DNA from: a virus
DNA length: 64,000 nucleotides
Direction: 5' to 3' (one strand)
IMG/VR virus record: IMGVR_UViG_3300028131_000823
Coordinates: 62,001-126,000 of that record
Shown here: in pieces, positions 38,951 to 61,447 of the stretch
Layout of the letters: each line of letters begins with the position of its first letter
Numbering within the stretch: the first letter of the stretch is position 1
Notes under the pieces: generated by a model
Databases searched by the model: none
Seen by the model: the letters and a program-made list of their open reading frames with translations, nothing else
What the model was told of the DNA's origin: nothing
Position numbers and translations under genes: made by a program

Positions 38951-41227
38951 ATGGCACTTAGTCCTCAATTATTACAATTCAAATCTTCGGGAGTTTACCG
39001 TTTAGAATTTGATAAGTCCCAGGTATCAAGTATATCTGCTGAGACAATAAGATTAGTTGCGGGTCACTCAAGAAAGGGACCTTACAACACGCCGGTTTTC
39101 GTTGAAGATACAGAAACTTTTGTTTTAATCTTTGGTGGAATCGACAAAAAATTAGAAAAGAAAGGAATGTTCTTTCACAGATCATGTTTAGAAGCATTAA
39201 AAAGAGGTCCAATCCTTGCTATGAACTTAGCAAGTTTTGATTCTAATGATGTAGCTTCTTATGCTAAAATTAGTACAGATGGTTCTGATGATGCAGCTGC
39301 AAACGTTTCAGCTACAGATGAATTTGCAAAATTTCATAATACTGATAAGTTTATGTTTCCATCTGATCAATCAGTTTTAGAAACATTAGGAGATTTAGAA
39401 ACATCTCTTACAGCTTTAAATTTAGTAAACATCGGTCAAAAAAACATTACAGTTATTGTAAGACAAGCACAGGATTTAGATAATTCTTTTAATGTTATTG
39501 CAAGAGAGTGGTATGGTGAAGACAATATTCCAGATGGAATTAACGAGTTTGATTATATTTCAGACTACATGGTAGATGTTTTAGTATTTCAAGGAAAATT
39601 CGAAGCTTCTGCAATGGATTTAGATCCAGTTTATGGAGATTATTTTACTTCAACTGGTTTATTAAAAGATAAATTAGTAGATTTTGCAAATGAAAGACAA
39701 GTTAGTTTATTAGCACAATATACTGGTTCAATTATCCCAGGATTTACAGATTTAGAAGGTAATGGTTTATACGTTGAACAACAAATAAACGCAGAGTCTA
39801 GAAGAACAGGTTTATTCTGTGCAATTAATGAAGCTGCAGTTGAAGCTGGAAATACTGATTTAATAGGTAACGCATATGATGCGACAGATGCTAATACTTT
39901 ACTTTCATATAGTTTAAGTGCAGGTGATAGATCAATTGATTTTTCTGGAACTGACTTTGTATTTGCTGCAACAGGTTCATCATTTACATTTACGTCAGCA
40001 AATAACGATGCATTGACATTATCTGTAGGCGATTATATGCCAGCATCTGCTGCTGATACTTTAGCTAGAGTAACAAGAATTTCTAAAACAACAACAGGCG
40101 TTTCTCCAAATGAAATAAGTGTTTATACTGTGAGTTGTTCACAACCAGTTGACGCTACATTTGATCCAGCTACTGATCTTGCTGTTAAATCATTTGAAGC
40201 TTCTGCTACTGAATATTCTTTATTTAATTTAAATAAAGCAACAATTGATGATCAAACAATTCAAAATTGTTTAACTGCATTCTCAAGTGGAGGTGTTAAA
40301 GCTGCATTAGTAGATAGAGACGTCATTGATTTAAGATATATTGTTGATTCTTTTGGATCTTATGAAGGTGGTATATTAAATAAAGCTGAATTTACACAAA
40401 TTGCAAAAGAGAGACAAAACGTTTCTTGTATTTTAAATGCTCCAACTGTTGAAGAATTTAAAAAATCTACAGATCCATCCTTTACAGATGCATTTACTGG
40501 AAGTTTTGAAACAAGATTTGTAAAAGACGGAGGTGATTTATCACAGAATCCAACTGGTACATATTCTTTACCTTCAATTGGAGATGGTGCTAATTACGGA
40601 TTCTACTATGGTCCTGGTTTAAATGTAAGAGAAAACGGTAAAGTAACAGTTGTTCCACCAGCGGCTTATGTTTCTAATAACTACATTGATAAATTTACAG
40701 ATTCATTACCATGGTCAATCGTCGCAGGTCCAAGAAGAGGAGTTATTGGCGGTACTAATGTAATTGGAGCTGAATATCCATTTGATAAATCAGATAGAGA
40801 TAACTTAGAACCATTTGGTTATAACCCAATCGTATTCGAAAGAGGAGTTGGTCTTGTAATTAAAGGTAATAAAACTGCACAACAGACTATTAAGTCTGCT
40901 TTAAGTTCTGCTCACGTTAGAGAAGTATTAATTTACATTGAAAACGGTATTGCAGATATTCTTAAAGATTATGTTTTTGAATTTAACACTGCACAAACAA
41001 GATTAGAGATTAAAACTCTTGCAGATTCATTTATGGAATCAGTTCTTGCAGATCAAGGTGTTTACGCTTATAAAAACGTAATGGATCAGACAAATAATAC
41101 TAATGAAATTATCGATAACAACATGGGTATCTTAGATACATTTGTTGAACCGGTTAAAGGTTTAGAGATTATAGTTCATAGAACAACAATCTTAAATACT
41201 GGAGAAATCGCAACAGGTAACTTCTAA
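38951..41227 (+). CDS. 18: tail sheath protein, gp18-like
   Basis: 758 aa (T4 gp18 is 659). Begins with SGVYRLEFDKSQVSSISAETIRLVAGHSRKGPYNTP, the conserved N-terminal arm and first strands of contractile sheath proteins. The C-terminal domain has ADYGFYYGPG-type and RRGVIGGTNVIG segments, then VREVLIYIENGIADILKDYVFEFNTAQTRLEI and VKGLEIIVHRTTI. The middle (about 150-430) is the variable protruding region. Forms the contractile helix around the gp19 tube. Confidence 0.93.
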   Translation: MALSPQLLQFKSSGVYRLEFDKSQVSSISAETIRLVAGHSRKGPYNTPVFVEDTETFVLIFGGIDKKLEKKGMFFHRSCLEALKRGPILAMNLASFDSNDVASYAKISTDGSDDAAANVSATDEFAKFHNTDKFMFPSDQSVLETLGDLETSLTALNLVNIGQKNITVIVRQAQDLDNSFNVIAREWYGEDNIPDGINEFDYISDYMVDVLVFQGKFEASAMDLDPVYGDYFTSTGLLKDKLVDFANERQVSLLAQYTGSIIPGFTDLEGNGLYVEQQINAESRRTGLFCAINEAAVEAGNTDLIGNAYDATDANTLLSYSLSAGDRSIDFSGTDFVFAATGSSFTFTSANNDALTLSVGDYMPASAADTLARVTRISKTTTGVSPNEISVYTVSCSQPVDATFDPATDLAVKSFEASATEYSLFNLNKATIDDQTIQNCLTAFSSGGVKAALVDRDVIDLRYIVDSFGSYEGGILNKAEFTQIAKERQNVSCILNAPTVEEFKKSTDPSFTDAFTGSFETRFVKDGGDLSQNPTGTYSLPSIGDGANYGFYYGPGLNVRENGKVTVVPPAAYVSNNYIDKFTDSLPWSIVAGPRRGVIGGTNVIGAEYPFDKSDRDNLEPFGYNPIVFERGVGLVIKGNKTAQQTIKSALSSAHVREVLIYIENGIADILKDYVFEFNTAQTRLEIKTLADSFMESVLADQGVYAYKNVMDQTNNTNEIIDNNMGILDTFVEPVKGLEIIVHRTTILNTGEIATGNF

Positions 41228-41320: not shown

Positions 41321-41875
41321 ATGGCATTACCACATTATTCAAACGATCAAACTAGTAAGAAGGGTAAGAATTTCGAACCAGTATTAGCTAATATGTTTGA
41401 GGTAACTATTCTTCCTCCAGCAGGCGTTGGTGGCCAAGAACAGTTAATTCAACATGTAAATTCAATTAGTGGTTTAGAACTTCATAAAGAATTAGGAGTT
41501 GTAGATCAAAAATTTAAATGGTCAACTAGATCTTATTCTGGTATTCCTGCTGATTCATTCTTAGATGTTACTGTGAATTTTTCATTAAACTTAAACGATG
41601 CAAATCAAATGTATCTATATAAAACAATGAGAGATTGGTACAGATTAGCATACAATCCAGAAACTGGTGAAGTTGGTCTTAAAAAAGACTATGTAGGAAC
41701 ATTAGTTATAGTACAATTTAACAGAGCAGGTGATATTTATAGAAAAATCACATGTGAAGATTGTTTTATTACTTCAGGTCTTAACCCAAATGCAGAATTA
41801 AATTATGAAACTGCAGATGCTCAAGCATTAGATGTTACTTGGAGAGTTAACACATGGGCTGAGGAATTAGTTTAA
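41321..41875 (+). CDS. 19: tail tube protein, gp19-like
   Basis: 184 aa (T4 163). FEVTILPPAG, HVNSISGLELHKELGVVDQKFKWSTRSYSGIPADSFLDVTVNFSLNL (first half) and MYLYKTMRDWYRLAYNPETG, with a C-terminal LNYETADAQALDVTWRVNTW, match the T4-type tube fold. It builds the inner tube through which DNA passes. Flanked by its own late motif and terminator, so it can be made at high level. Confidence 0.9.
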   Translation: MALPHYSNDQTSKKGKNFEPVLANMFEVTILPPAGVGGQEQLIQHVNSISGLELHKELGVVDQKFKWSTRSYSGIPADSFLDVTVNFSLNLNDANQMYLYKTMRDWYRLAYNPETGEVGLKKDYVGTLVIVQFNRAGDIYRKITCEDCFITSGLNPNAELNYETADAQALDVTWRVNTWAEELV

Positions 41876-41926: not shown

Positions 41927-41958
41927 GCTTGGTAAAAATATTATATTATTATAATAAT

Positions 41959-42153
41959 ATGTCAAAGGAAGACTACATAGTAAACAAATTAATTAAAAAA
42001 ATTCAAGTGCTTTTAACAGAACCTGAGTTTGAAGAATTAAATCACATTATATTAAGTAAGGCAATGGCTGAAAAACAAAGGCCTAAATCTGTTAGTGCTT
42101 TTGTAAGAGATTTAATACAGAAAGAAATTAAAAAAAATTCTGAAACAAAATAA
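41959..42153 (+). CDS. small ribbon-helix-helix-like protein, 64 aa
   Basis: From ATG 41959: a short basic start, strand KIQVLLTEPEFEELN, then two helices ending RPKSVSAFVRDLIQKEIKK. This strand-helix-helix pattern is like CopG/Arc DNA-binding proteins. The upstream in-frame ATG at 41929 is inside a run following the terminator and is less likely. A transcription regulator acting in the tail region is possible. Confidence 0.55.
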   Translation: MSKEDYIVNKLIKKIQVLLTEPEFEELNHIILSKAMAEKQRPKSVSAFVRDLIQKEIKKNSETK

Positions 42154-42186: not shown

Positions 42187-43191
42187 ATGAGTGAAGACAA
42201 TAAAGATTTTGATAAGTTCTTAAATAAGAAAGAACAAGAAGGAGGAGCATTTGAAAATACTTCTCAAGAATCTACAAATAAAGAAAATGTAGAAACAGTT
42301 GATCCTATTGAGGATACGATAAATAAACAAGGATTAGGCTCAGTAAATATGTCTAAATTTGGAAAGCAAAATGCTGAAAGTTCAAACTTTCATTTAGGCT
42401 ATCATTCAGTTGATATGGAAACTCTTTTTTCTAGAGGACGTTTCTATCCACAAGATACTAAAATTTCTATTAGATCAGCAAAGGTTGCTGAAATTAGACA
42501 TTTTTCAACAATGAATGAAAATAGTCTTTTAGATATCGAAGAAAAATTAAACGGTATTGTTAAAGCGTGTATGAGAATTGAAGCTCCTAATAAAAAACTT
42601 TCTTATAAAGATCTTTTAGAAGAAGATAGAATAGCAATTCTTTTACAAATTAGAGATTTATCATTTCCAGAAGCTGAAAATAAATTAATGTTAAAGGCTG
42701 AAAATAGTTATGGAACAACTAAAGATGTTGAATTAGCCACAAGAAACTTTATTACTACTGAAATTCCAGCAGAAATTGAAAAGTATTATGATGCAGTTGC
42801 AAGATGTTTTAGAATCCAAACTAAAAGTTCAGGTGAAATCTTAATGAAGCCACCATGCATTGGCGTAATGGAAGAAGTTACAAAATATATTAAAGAACAG
42901 CAAGAAAAAAAGAAAAGATGGGATCAAGCATTTATTCAAATCTTACCATATATTCAACTTGATTGGAGAGGATTTAATCAAACAGAAATATTTAATTCTG
43001 AGGTTGCATTCCAAGGATGGAACGAAAAGAAATACATGGTAACATATAGACTTGCAGAGAAAATGAAAATAGGTGCAGAGCCTGAAATGTTAGTAGACGT
43101 AGATGGAGAAGACGTTAGTGTCCCTCTTCAGTTCCCAGGTGGAATCAAAAGTCTTTTCATTATTTCAGATCTCGCTGGAGAACTTCTTTAA
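42187..43191 (+). CDS. tail assembly chaperone / baseplate hub assembly protein (gp26-like), zero-frame product, 334 aa
   Basis: Acidic disordered N-terminus (1-65), then GYHSVDMETLFSRGRFYPQDTKISIRSAKVAEIRHFSTM and a helical domain (NGIVKACMRIEA, EDRIAILLQIRDLSF), a pattern found in T4-like hub/tail-assembly proteins encoded before the tape measure. The frame ends CTT CTT TAA, and an 80-codon open frame continues without a start codon of its own in the +1 frame. A long and a short product from one gene is the usual form of tail assembly chaperones. Naming as gp26-like is tentative. Confidence 0.65.
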   Translation: MSEDNKDFDKFLNKKEQEGGAFENTSQESTNKENVETVDPIEDTINKQGLGSVNMSKFGKQNAESSNFHLGYHSVDMETLFSRGRFYPQDTKISIRSAKVAEIRHFSTMNENSLLDIEEKLNGIVKACMRIEAPNKKLSYKDLLEEDRIAILLQIRDLSFPEAENKLMLKAENSYGTTKDVELATRNFITTEIPAEIEKYYDAVARCFRIQTKSSGEILMKPPCIGVMEEVTKYIKEQQEKKKRWDQAFIQILPYIQLDWRGFNQTEIFNSEVAFQGWNEKKYMVTYRLAEKMKIGAEPEMLVDVDGEDVSVPLQFPGGIKSLFIISDLAGELL

Positions 43192-43192
43192 G
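43177..43192 (+). other. probable programmed +1 ribosomal frameshift site
   Basis: GGAG (43177-43180), then AACTT, CTT (43186-43188), TAA (43189-43191) and G. CTT followed by a stop is the slip codon of the bacterial prfB +1 frameshift (CTT TGA C), and the purine-rich GGAGAA upstream sits where prfB has its Shine-Dalgarno-like stimulator. Slipping CTT to TTT and reading AAG next joins the two frames exactly. Confidence 0.6.
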
Positions 43193-43432
43193 ACTAAATT
43201 CTATCTGGGGTTTCATTTACATCTCCAGCCTAGCGAAATAGATAATCTCGAGTATTATGAGTATTTCTATTATGTTCAAAACCTTTCTGATCATTTGAAA
43301 AAACAAAACAAATCAGAAAGCGAACAAAATGAACAAGCGCAAGAACAATATGGTAATTATAAGCAGAAGATGCCTAATATGAACCAATATAAATCTCCTA
43401 AGATGCCAAGCATTAAGATGCCAAAAATCTGA
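43190..43432 (+). CDS. frameshift extension of the tail assembly chaperone, 80 codons
   Basis: Read in +1 from AAG 43190: KTKFYLGFHLHLQPSEIDNL, then EYYEYFYYVQNLSDHLKKQN and a Lys/Met/Pro tail ending MPSIKMPKI. FYLGFHLHLQPSEID... is a well-formed domain, not a shadow frame. Fusion with the upstream gene gives about 414 aa. The in-frame ATG at 43103 lies inside the upstream gene and is not needed. TGA 43430 abuts a late-type motif for the tape measure. Confidence 0.65.
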   Translation, partial: KTKFYLGFHLHLQPSEIDNLEYYEYFYYVQNLSDHLKKQNKSESEQNEQAQEQYGNYKQKMPNMNQYKSPKMPSIKMPKI

Positions 43433-43462: not shown

Positions 43463-46400
43463 TTGAGCGCTTTTAAATCTCCATTTGAAAAATTAAGCTA
43501 CGAAGCACAAAGGGAAATTGCAGATTCTGTACAACCTGGAGGTGCAATGTATGATCTTTTAGAAGACATTGCAGATAATATTAATCAATTAAATGCTAGA
43601 GAATCTGAGGTCAAAAGAGTATCTCTTTTTGGTGGACTAACTATCAAAGAGGCTTTAGCATGGAAATTTTTAGGAGAAAAAGGACTTAAAGCAATAGGCG
43701 AAGGATTTGGGGCAATAGCAGATGTTATTGACGGTATGAAAACCGGGGGTGATGAAGCAAAGGAAAAGATGGAGGCAATTGCTTCAGGATTAGAAGCAAT
43801 AAAAGGACTTGGAAAAGCCATCTTTGAATTTGCAGGATATTTATTACTAGCAACGCCGTTACTAATGATAGGAGTATTAGCGGCTCCATTATTTGCACTT
43901 AGTTTATTTATAATAACAATGGCACTGTCATTTGCAGCAAAGCCTTTAGCAGATAAACAGACTCAAGAGGCTTTAGTAGCTATGGGAGATATTGGAATGG
44001 GCTTGCTAAAACTAGGAGGAAGTCTTCTTGTTTTTGCATTAATTTCTCCATTTGCAATAATAGGAGTAATAGCAGCATTTATAGTTATATCAACACTTGG
44101 GCTAGCCTTCAAAGTACTAGATGCACTTGGAATTACAGATGACATGGAAAAAATGGCAAAAGCACTTGCAATGACAGGATTAGCAATATTATCATTAGGG
44201 GTTTCATTAGCTCTTTTTAGATTAATGCATCCTTCAGAAATGGAGCTTTTAAAACTATCAGTAGCGGTAGGACTTACTATAATTGGATTTGCATTAGCCT
44301 TTGGAATTATTGGCATATTTAAAGACGAAATAATGGACGGTGCGTATGCATTAATGCTTACTGGACTAGCAATAGTAGTCTTAGGACTTTCTATGTACTT
44401 ATTTAATATGGCTCTTCAAGGAATTGATGATAAATGGGAATTTTTACTTCAACTAGGTATTACACTAGGTGGATTAGGACTTGTAATGTTTGTCATAGGA
44501 AAGGATGCAGAAGGTGTTGCAATGGGAGCAGGTGCAATGATAGTTGCAGGAATAGCAATAATAGCAATAGCAATAGGGGTTAAAATATTTTCATCTGCTA
44601 TAGAAGGCTTAGATAGTCCATGGGAATTTTTAGCACAGGTAGGAGTTACGGTTGCAGGGCTTGGTCTTGCGATGGCAGGTGCTGGTCTTATTGCGCCGAT
44701 GATTGCATTAGGTGCAGGAGCAATGATACTGGCAGGTGGAGCATTAATCGCCATAGCAATAGGCGTTAAATTAATGAGTAAAGTATTTGAGGGAAATGCA
44801 TGGGCAAACATGGTAGCAGATTCAGGAAGAGTAACTGAATCAACACTTGGATTTGGAGGAGGCAGACCAATGAGTAATTTAGAAGTACTAATGACTGCAA
44901 TTGGCTATTCATTTATGTGGAATCCATTTCAAGCTATTGGTATAGCAGGAGGTGCAGGTGCAATGCTATTAGCAGGTGCAGCAATGGTCTCAATAGGTAA
45001 AGGAATTGAAAAATTTCAAGGGTTAAGCATCGACTATGATACTTTTCCAGATCAACTTAGCACACTTACAAATACACTAGCTGAAACATTTGGTAAAATA
45101 GGTGAAGATTATGGTGGAGCTGGTTTATTTGGTTTAGGTGGAGGACTTGTTTATCAAGGAATTCAAAGTGTAATGGGAATGGGTAACGCTCTTAGTAGTA
45201 TTGCATATGGAATGTCAAAAATGGCTAAATTAGAATTTCCAACATATAACCCAGATGGAAGTGTCAAAGAAATTATTACATTGAATAGTGGTACTATGAA
45301 AACTATTAATGAAAATGTAGCAGATATGGTATCAAGTCTCGCAACCGCATTTGGAGACATAGGTAAAAAATACCCTTCTAAAAGTGCCGGAGGAGTTATG
45401 GGCTTTCTTGGATTTACAAAAGAAAACCCAGTTACGGCAGGTATTAGAGCAGTTAGTGGAATGGGAGGAGCAATTGGAGGAATTGCTAACGGAATGAAAG
45501 ATATGGCAGCTCTTAAATTTAATGTATATGGAGATCCAAGTAAACCTGAAAAAATTACAGAAATAATAGATTTAACTAAAGGCGATATGCTAAAAAAGGT
45601 AGGAGATAATATAATGAAATTAGTCTCTACGCTGGTTGATGGATTTGCAGCCATAGGAAAGACTTATAAAGATTGGAGAACAGCAGGAGATGCTGCAAGA
45701 GGACTTTCACTTGCACAGGAGATGGGACCTATACTTGGAGATATTGTTCAATCAATGTCTGAGTTTGCAAAAGGAGGAATGGAAGAAGTGCCTAAGAAAA
45801 TAAATGAATTTTTAGTAGAATTTGCAAAAAACTTACAAGAACTTGCAAAGGTAGATGGCAGTGCCGTTAAGTCAGTAGGAAATGGAATTGAATGGTTTTT
45901 TGATGCATTTCAAGATGAACAAGAAGGTATAGATGTAATGATAGCAATGGGCAAAGAAGCAGATGCATTAAATAATGTATCTTCATTCATAGAAAAAATA
46001 GGAGCAGTTCCAGCAACTATTACTAAAACTGCAGATGCAATTAAAACAATGAGTATTTCCATGCCAAAAATGAGCCTTTTATTTTTAGGAGATGCAACAG
46101 ACTTTGTTGAAGAATCTGGTAAATTTGGAAATCACGTTATTGTAGGAAGGGCTATAAAGGATATTACAAATAGTATGGTAACTTTAGGTGAAGTAAACGT
46201 TGAAGGTTTTCCAACTATGTTAGACTTTATAGAAGATCTTGAAGACATTGATTTAAGCGATATTAAAAAAGATTTAAGACATGTTGCAAAATCTTATCAA
46301 ATGATAGGAGAAACAACAAATAGTTTAGATATTGAAGCAATCGTAGAAACTTCAAATATGTTTAAAGCTCTTGCGTATCTTTCTGAACAAGGAGGAGAAG

Positions 46401-46720
46401 ATGCAATCGAAGCACTCGGTGATGATTTAATAGAAGCAGTCGAAAAACTTGCATTAATGATAGCAGACTTTGGAGGAACAGTTGAAGAAGCAAGAGAAGG
46501 TAATCAATCATTTATAGATGGAGCAATAGACACTATTAAATCTGGAGCTAAAACTCTTTTCGGAGGAGGTTTTAGTTCAGGAGGAGGAAGTACATCGAAT
46601 TCACAAAGCACTGTTGTTAACAACACAGATCAATCTGCCCTTCTTGCTGAAATTAAAAGACTACAAAATATTTTAATGTCAGGTGAAGCTACATTCCAAG
46701 TAGAAAGTAACGCGTTTTAA
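43463..46720 (+). CDS. tail tape-measure protein (gp29 role), 1085 aa, TTG start
   Basis: The longest gene in the window. It follows the frameshifting chaperone gene, the standard place for a tape measure. Residues about 110-510 are alternating hydrophobic and Gly/Ala-rich helices (for example GAGAMIVAGIAIIAIAIGVKI, which recurs in similar form several times). Residues about 560-900 carry helical repeats separated by GGVMGFLG/GGAIGGIANGM loops. The C-terminus has a Gly/Ser/Thr stretch, then DQSALLAEIKRLQNIL. TTG 43463 is the only sensible start. At 1085 aa it is nearly twice T4 gp29 (590), implying a longer tail. Confidence 0.8.
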   Translation: MSAFKSPFEKLSYEAQREIADSVQPGGAMYDLLEDIADNINQLNARESEVKRVSLFGGLTIKEALAWKFLGEKGLKAIGEGFGAIADVIDGMKTGGDEAKEKMEAIASGLEAIKGLGKAIFEFAGYLLLATPLLMIGVLAAPLFALSLFIITMALSFAAKPLADKQTQEALVAMGDIGMGLLKLGGSLLVFALISPFAIIGVIAAFIVISTLGLAFKVLDALGITDDMEKMAKALAMTGLAILSLGVSLALFRLMHPSEMELLKLSVAVGLTIIGFALAFGIIGIFKDEIMDGAYALMLTGLAIVVLGLSMYLFNMALQGIDDKWEFLLQLGITLGGLGLVMFVIGKDAEGVAMGAGAMIVAGIAIIAIAIGVKIFSSAIEGLDSPWEFLAQVGVTVAGLGLAMAGAGLIAPMIALGAGAMILAGGALIAIAIGVKLMSKVFEGNAWANMVADSGRVTESTLGFGGGRPMSNLEVLMTAIGYSFMWNPFQAIGIAGGAGAMLLAGAAMVSIGKGIEKFQGLSIDYDTFPDQLSTLTNTLAETFGKIGEDYGGAGLFGLGGGLVYQGIQSVMGMGNALSSIAYGMSKMAKLEFPTYNPDGSVKEIITLNSGTMKTINENVADMVSSLATAFGDIGKKYPSKSAGGVMGFLGFTKENPVTAGIRAVSGMGGAIGGIANGMKDMAALKFNVYGDPSKPEKITEIIDLTKGDMLKKVGDNIMKLVSTLVDGFAAIGKTYKDWRTAGDAARGLSLAQEMGPILGDIVQSMSEFAKGGMEEVPKKINEFLVEFAKNLQELAKVDGSAVKSVGNGIEWFFDAFQDEQEGIDVMIAMGKEADALNNVSSFIEKIGAVPATITKTADAIKTMSISMPKMSLLFLGDATDFVEESGKFGNHVIVGRAIKDITNSMVTLGEVNVEGFPTMLDFIEDLEDIDLSDIKKDLRHVAKSYQMIGETTNSLDIEAIVETSNMFKALAYLSEQGGEDAIEALGDDLIEAVEKLALMIADFGGTVEEAREGNQSFIDGAIDTIKSGAKTLFGGGFSSGGGSTSNSQSTVVNNTDQSALLAEIKRLQNILMSGEATFQVESNAF

Positions 46721-47132: not shown

Positions 47133-47984
47133 ATGAACGTTTTACAAAAATACATTACATATTGTGAAAAGAAAGGAATTGCTTTTCAAATGGATAATCA
47201 TGTAAGACCTTATGACGATACGACACTTTTTTGTCCAGCTGGCATGCAGCAGTTTAAAGATCGTTTTAAAAATCCAGATAATACTACAGTTGCAAATGTT
47301 CAATCCTGTTTAAGACTACAAGACATTGACGAGATAGGAGATGGAAGCCATCTTTTATACTTTAACATGTTAGGTCTTTTTAGTTTTGGAGAAATGACAG
47401 TTAACCAAGCCGTTGAATTTTGGATGGAATTTGTACAAGAAGAACTTAAAATCCAAGTAGACTGTGCAACAATTCATTCTGATAAGTTTGATAATTGGAA
47501 ATGGATGTATGATATTTATAAAACTCCATTAAAATTAGACGATGAATGTATTTGGACTGATGGAGAAATGGGAGGTTATTGTACAGAGTTTTACCATAAA
47601 GGAATAGAAATAGGTAATATAGTAAATACGTCAGATAAATTTATAGATGTCGGGTTTGGACTTGAAAGACTTGAGGCTATAGTTAATGGCACTGAGGTAA
47701 AGAGTGCAAACGAGACACTTGAAGAGACTATTTTAAAGATAGCAGATTCTGGTTATAAGCCAGGTCCACAGAAACAAGGATATGTACTTCGTAAACTTCT
47801 TAGAATCTTATACAATAATAATGGTTATATGGATCATCCATTTTTTAAGAGGGAAGTTGAAAGACAAGAAAAAACAAAACTTAGGTATCTTAGACTTAAG
47901 GAAAAGCACCAAGATAAAGATAAAGAATGGTGGTTTGATACACATGGTATCGATATTGATGAAATGAACGAATTAGGACTATGA
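47133..47984 (+). CDS. alanyl-tRNA synthetase-like catalytic core protein, 283 aa
   Basis: Aligns by eye with the N-terminal domain of bacterial AlaRS: LFCPAGMQQFKDRF (AlaRS LFTNAGMNQFKD), QSCLRLQDIDEIG, FNMLGLFSFGEMTVNQAVEFW (FEMLGNFSFGDYFKHDAI), GGYCTEFYH, class II motif 3 VGFGLERLEAI and GYVLRKLLR. The motif 2 arginine-containing RHHTFFE reads SHLLYFN here, so the Arg and Glu normally contacting ATP are not conserved. Editing and C-Ala domains are absent (E. coli AlaRS is 876 aa). It may be an altered synthetase or a repurposed paralogue. It overlaps rmlC by 4 nt, and a tRNA-Ala gene lies 12 kb downstream. Confidence 0.8.
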   Translation: MNVLQKYITYCEKKGIAFQMDNHVRPYDDTTLFCPAGMQQFKDRFKNPDNTTVANVQSCLRLQDIDEIGDGSHLLYFNMLGLFSFGEMTVNQAVEFWMEFVQEELKIQVDCATIHSDKFDNWKWMYDIYKTPLKLDDECIWTDGEMGGYCTEFYHKGIEIGNIVNTSDKFIDVGFGLERLEAIVNGTEVKSANETLEETILKIADSGYKPGPQKQGYVLRKLLRILYNNNGYMDHPFFKREVERQEKTKLRYLRLKEKHQDKDKEWWFDTHGIDIDEMNELGL

Positions 47985-59720: not shown

Positions 59721-59794
59721 GGGGGTATAGCTCAGTTGGCTAGAGCGCCTGCCTTGCACGCAGGAGGCCGTGGGTTCGAATCCCTCTACCTCCA
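59721..59794 (+). tRNA. tRNA-Ala (anticodon TGC)
   Basis: Cloverleaf read directly: acceptor GGGGGTA with TACCTCC, D-arm GCTC/GAGC, anticodon arm CCTGC-CTTGCAC-GCAGG with TGC, T-loop TTCGAAT. The acceptor has G3 opposite T70, the G:U pair that is the main identity signal for alanyl-tRNA synthetase. Discriminator A; CCA is not encoded. One T:T mismatch in the T-stem is shared with the tRNA-Thr below. The phage also encodes an AlaRS-like protein at 47133. Confidence 0.95.
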
Positions 59795-59805
59795 CTATCT
59801 TAATT

Positions 59806-61373: not shown

Positions 61374-61447
61374 GCCTTTGTAGCTCAGCTGGCTAGAGCA
61401 GCTGATTTGTAATCAGCAGGTCGTGGGTTCGAGTCCCTCCAAAGGCT
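61374..61447 (+). tRNA. tRNA-Thr (anticodon TGT)
   Basis: Acceptor GCCTTTG with CAAAGGC, D-arm GCTC/GAGC, anticodon arm GCTGA-TTTGTAA-TCAGC with TGT, T-loop TTCGAGT, discriminator T. CCA is not encoded. Its T-stem GTGGG/CCCTC is the same as in tRNA-Ala. ACA is the Thr codon read by this tRNA and is common in the window. Confidence 0.95.

Follow-up and report, generated by a model that had tools for sequence, protein, structure and literature searches.

Two overlapping frames at 42187–43432

The question raised by this locus is whether two overlapping open reading frames in a phage tail gene cluster represent two genes or one gene that is decoded in two ways. The window, by which we mean the whole stretch of 64,000 nucleotides analysed, comes from a virus record of 204,977 bases, and positions 42187–43432 of its + strand very probably hold a single gene that is decoded two ways by a programmed +1 shift at CTT TAA. 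From sequence comparison we infer the occurrence of this shift, its rate, its +1 rather than −2 direction and the chaperone role of the products.

The zero-frame gene (42187–43191, + strand) encodes 334 aa, was assigned to phrog_36717 and has the 3′ end GGAGAA CTT CTT TAA G. Reading in the +1 frame continues without interruption from the AAG at 43190 to the TGA at 43430–43432, giving an extension of 80 codons plus the stop (43190–43432, + strand) whose translation begins KTKFYLGFHLHLQPSEID. The ending CTT CTT TAA and the 80 open codons had been pointed out in an earlier note on this DNA and were confirmed. A run of 80 open codons arose by chance in 0.14 % of shuffles of the same bases. The gene order is tail sheath (38951–41227, +; phrog_34521, E 5e-128), tail tube (41321–41875, +; phrog_45 tail tube, E 1.8e-8), the 42187–43191 gene and an ORF of 1085 aa with a TTG start (43463–46720, +), and the overlap of the two frames is conserved. 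Profile searches with the 1085-aa ORF gave no PHROG or Pfam match, and this gene is a presumed tape measure gene by position and size only. A small ORF (41929–42153) that lies between the tail tube gene and the zero-frame gene weakly matches the ribbon-helix-helix (CopG) family, with a score under the Pfam cut-off.

According to the proposed mechanism, most ribosomes would stop at the UAA that follows CUU CUU, releasing the 334-aa protein. Some would pause at this UAA (43189–43191, +, followed by G), whereupon the peptidyl-tRNA-Leu in the P site would slip from CUU to UUU within the slippery CTT_T (43186–43189, +; the last CTT is 43186–43188), and the next codon read would be AAG. The shifted product would comprise 414 aa, including the 80-aa tail. 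The shorter protein would correspond to T4 gp26 and lambda gpG and the longer one to T4 gp51 and lambda gpGT; neither would be part of the virion, and both would act as chaperones, coating the tape measure and recruiting the tail tube or the hub.

Conservation of the junction and direction of the proposed shift

For a first set of relatives, viral contigs were scanned using only the zero-frame protein, with peptide patterns that avoided the junction. Of the loci recovered, 40 had an intact junction, and each of these ended in CTT TAA G/A and carried the +1 extension. Further scans brought the set to 67 distinct related sequences (43–100 % protein identity), which were compared on a tree. The final codon was CTT in all 67, with no parsimony changes on the tree, compared with 8 changes at the penultimate codon and 13, 18, 18, 20 and 20 at the other conserved leucine columns (same tree, n=67); such sequence counts are not counts of independent events, and the tree count corrects for kinship only partly. 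The penultimate leucine codon was CTT, CTA or TTA, which indicates that conservation at the nucleotide level is focused on the P-site codon. TTA is the commonest leucine codon in the window (624, versus 313 for CTT). The zero-frame stop was TAA in 67 of 67 relatives, followed by G in 59 and by A in 8.

In the final ~14 codons upstream of the shift site (43147–43188, +), synonymous difference was about 0.07, compared with 0.43 ± 0.05 in 14-codon windows elsewhere in the gene, and the drop was also seen in a smaller, overlapping sequence set. Downstream of the stop, the extension frame was open in every one of the 67 relatives and the remaining two frames were interrupted in every one. Its dN/dS of about 0.17 among relatives indicates purifying selection, and its first residues, K-T/A-K-F-Y-L, were conserved directly after the stop. 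Conservation of CTT TAA and of the extension among relatives, which the earlier note had suggested as a check, was seen in all 67. The central claim of that note, a prfB-like +1 shift at CTT TAA in the tail-assembly chaperone gene of a T4-related phage, is supported by the invariance of CTT TAA R and also by the synonymous constraint, by the lack of a conserved start and by the gp26/gp51 homology of both halves, as described below.

The two frames might instead be two separate genes, the second having its own start inside the first or being reached by termination–reinitiation, as in most compact phage operons. The +1 ORF of the window holds an ATG at 43103 as well as GTGs, so that a gene finder calls a protein of 109 aa, and 52 of the 67 relatives have a GTG at −51; the latter, however, follows from GGTGGA, which encodes a conserved Gly-Gly pair in frame 0. 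No ATG, GTG or TTG in the open +1 frame is common to the relatives: 45 of the 67 have no ATG, L036/L037 offer only a TTG at −30, and L226 and L227 are without any start codon upstream in this frame. Moreover, the constraint is limited to the last ~14 codons and does not span from a start, and separate initiation leaves the invariant CTT unexplained, so that for this locus it is quite improbable. Two separately started genes, which the earlier note had named as evidence against a shift, were not found in close relatives, but may occur in distant MaF61, which carries ATGATGAGTAA, and in some huge-phage records. An ATG, TTG or GTG lies just past the stop in PAU, PTm1 and several huge-phage records, and the loci of MaF61, PAU and huge-phage records (L044, L047, L053–L056) have one in the extension frame at or just past the stop. 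Most distant relatives (MaF61, PAU, LR756501/502/504 and LR745206) may use a separate ORF2 start; in the distant relatives with this possibility the junction codon differs too.

If one gene is decoded in two frames, the direction of the change has to be considered, as a −2 slip reaches the same frame as a +1 slip and tail genes of the Mu type are known to use −2 shifts. A −2 slip, however, would move the tRNA-Leu that had read CUU onto UUC or a still poorer partner, the penultimate codon can vary among the three leucine codons given above, and an invariant codon with an adjacent UAA is the signature of a +1 slip; a −2 slip was judged very improbable. A −1 slippery heptamer (X XXY YYZ) was absent from the window site, and the extension lies in the +1 frame. 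Transcriptional slippage, sequencing error or decay of the gene have nothing in their favour except the disrupted frame itself and are scarcely credible, given an identical junction in 67 distinct sequences, a longest homopolymer of TTT and purifying selection on both parts.

With regard to the favoured +1 shift, UAA is normally an efficient stop that is read by both release factors. This efficiency counts against a +1 shift and, because both factors read UAA, a dependence of the shift on RF1/RF2 is at most possible. A search for a phage-encoded release factor (PF00472) across the 204,977 bases of the possibly incomplete record gave no match. Slippage at UAA has a precedent, since CTTTAA makes up 1.4 % of prfB shift sites (PMC12421855), and the shift codon of prfB is classically CUU_U, with UUU_U as the rarer alternative (PMC5009743, PMC12421855). 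The prfB site (CUU UGA C) and the window share a CUU P-site codon, an adjacent stop and a slip to UUU, and Shine–Dalgarno-like purines are found upstream in prfB and in the window's clade. The element is placed 3 nt upstream of CUU in prfB, whereas in the window the distance is 5 nt and the element is not universal among relatives. In addition, prfB has the weak, RF2-dependent stop UGA C, whereas the window family invariably has UAA with G or A as the next base, and since the window gene is a putative tail chaperone gene no autoregulatory loop is implied, unlike in prfB. The proposed site would work like prfB but is no copy of the prfB element.

Relationship to T4 gp26 and gp51 and proposed routes to two protein lengths

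PF12322 includes both gp26 (208 aa) and gp51 (249 aa) of T4. The window protein by itself gave no Pfam match; close relatives pass the PF12322 cut-off of 24.5 bits (LR756500, 29.2 bits; PAU, 33.9 bits), and an alignment of the window family matched T4 gp26/gp51 and cyanophage gp26 (hhalign probability 96.1, E 3.5e-9), which points to a distant PF12322 (T4_baseplate) member. The predicted fold of the zero-frame part matched BFVD entries named ‘baseplate hub assembly chaperone’ and ‘T4 gp51-like’ (E 1e-6 to 2e-4). The extension, a candidate ‘T’ domain, matched phrog_634 (E 7.7e-7) and gp51 tails (hhalign probability 92, E 6e-7), and the tail matched in this way is present in gp51 and absent from gp26. 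Because the core matches PF12322 and the extension matches the gp51-only tail, the two predicted forms correspond to gp26 (short) and gp51 (long).

A review of T4 lists both gp26 and gp51 as chaperones of hub assembly and states that the particle contains no gp51 (PMC3004832). It is nevertheless conceivable that the shift is real and that its products are structural or regulatory proteins of the baseplate or hub and not chaperones of the G/GT type, given that PF12322 members are annotated as baseplate hub and that gp26 has been placed in the T4 hub by genetic work (cited in PMC3004832). Such a role appears unlikely in view of the chaperone listing of both proteins and the absence of gp51 from the particle in the same review, the position of the gene between the tail tube and presumed tape measure genes, and the recurrence of short/long pairs by three routes. 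By analogy, the two forms would be functionally equivalent to lambda gpG and gpGT: in lambda, too, one gene upstream of the tape measure gives a short and a C-terminally extended chaperone, although lambda uses a −1 shift on a slippery heptamer and the window a predicted +1 shift at a stop. No homologue among chaperones of the lambda type was found, and a PDB fold search gave nothing significant; the HK97 chaperone 2ob9, at E 2.4, was not counted as evidence.

In T4 (L057; NC_000866, 115802–117228), gp26 and gp51, which belong to the same family as the window protein, are paralogs encoded on opposite strands, gp51 being gp26 plus the tail, a two-gene G/GT form with no frameshift. A two-gene G/GT form by paralogy has also been described for gp143/gp144 of phage 0305phi8-36 (PMC2147016), which parallels T4 gp26/gp51, without a frameshift, in another phage lineage.

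The cyanophage loci (L141, Syn9, NC_008296 6478–7391; L142, P-SSM2; L143–L222) and those of the KVP40 type agree with the window in family and gene order and likewise have an overlapping, out-of-frame ORF2, which is annotated as a second gene and lies in the −1 frame behind U UUU UUC, whereas that of the window is in the +1 frame. In 78 of 78 distinct contigs, cyanophage gp26 ended in T TTT TTC, one codon and a stop; the gp51 tail lay in the −1 frame, and gp51 homology began ahead of the annotated gp51 start. Cyanophage gp26/gp51 is probably a classical −1 frameshift annotated as two genes. The gp51 of cyanophages and marine vibriophages is without ~200 N-terminal residues, a gap noted but left unexplained by Sullivan et al. 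(PMC3037559), and the proposed −1 shift from gp26 would explain the missing residues. The same U UUU UUC heptamer was found in KVP40 (L231), Aeromonas phage AS-szw (L233) and Stenotrophomonas phage Ps15 (L234), with TTTTTTT in the same place in phiN3 (L232) and TTTTTTG in RL38J1 (L235). ORF2 of AS-szw is without any annotation.

Other junctions were found in more divergent phages. In the Lak group (L051, L052 and L223–L225), the homologous junction is TTT TAA T in the Lak megaphages, which read TAG as Q, and CTT TAA T in L225, a 47 %-identical relative of these; TTT and CTT are the two prfB shift codons, which favours the +1 reading. The extension of the Lak group is longer than that of the window family. 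The junctions ATT TAA T in the Chryseobacterium phages MA9V, TTA TGA T in PTm1 and TTA TAA A in pT24 fit poorly with a slip of the CUU/UUU type. These loci (L045, L046, L048 and L049) keep an overlapping extension; Chryseobacteria have an altered anti-Shine–Dalgarno sequence (PMC8710568). Outside this family, a very likely +1 shift has been reported for the tail chaperone of halovirus HSTV-2 (PMC5009743), which, unlike the window phage, is an archaeal virus with an archaeal host.

Frameshifting in tail chaperones has been called general ‘except T4’ (PMC5009743). The comparison of these loci suggests that the T4 exception and the short cyanophage gp51 share one answer, namely that gp26 and gp51 are the short and the long chaperone. 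A single need, for two protein lengths in a set ratio, would then be met by three routes within one family: gene paralogy in T4, −1 frameshifting in cyanophages and, in a Bacteroidota-type lineage, a shift by +1. The last of these would offer a +1 site other than that of prfB that is open to direct testing, in hosts making little use of Shine–Dalgarno pairing. A search of literature that included few subscription journals found no report of frameshifting in gp26/gp51 of T4-type phages, and any claim of novelty extends to that literature only.

Host-type signals and candidate stimulators

The earlier note had compared a purine-rich GGAGAA upstream of the junction with the stimulator of prfB. 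GGAG is indeed present in the window (43177–43180, +), but 5 nt rather than 3 nt before the slippery CTT, and it is clade-specific: it was found in 61 of the 67 sequences, all in the window's own clade. Sequences without it include the LR756500 group, and the loci concerned are L038, L039, L095 and the L226/L227/L230 group. Shine–Dalgarno help to the shift from this GGAG is possible; the case for it as a stimulator is weakened by the clade specificity, by the spacing and by the likely Bacteroidota hosts, which barely use Shine–Dalgarno pairing. Only 2 of the 45 larger ORFs in the window had a Shine–Dalgarno tetramer before the start, compared with 10 % of random 15-nt windows, and the −3 position before window starts was mostly A, initiation signals that match the Bacteroidota pattern. 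All named isolates among the relatives have Bacteroidota hosts except PAU, which is recorded as a Sphingomonas phage, and the hosts are likely to be Bacteroidota. In F. johnsoniae ribosomes the anti-Shine–Dalgarno sequence is occluded, yet the prfB shift is retained (PMC8710568).

No covariation or stability signal for an RNA structure was detected around the site (alignment fold of 5 weak pairs; z −1.4 to +0.4). As a tentative proposal, which we would hold to be somewhat less probable than its opposite, an efficient +1 shift at UAA in Bacteroidota hosts with an occluded anti-Shine–Dalgarno sequence might be driven by the constrained ~42-nt/14-codon tract and not by Shine–Dalgarno pairing, acting either through the nascent peptide LFIISDLxGELL or through an mRNA contact. 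If so, the tract would be a stimulator of a new kind, and release-factor level might tune this phage process.

Among the other features of the window, an ORF at 47133–47984 may encode an N-terminal fragment of alanyl-tRNA synthetase. The same window carries a tRNA-Ala(TGC) gene at 59721–59795, and a tRNA-Thr(TGT) is located at 61374.
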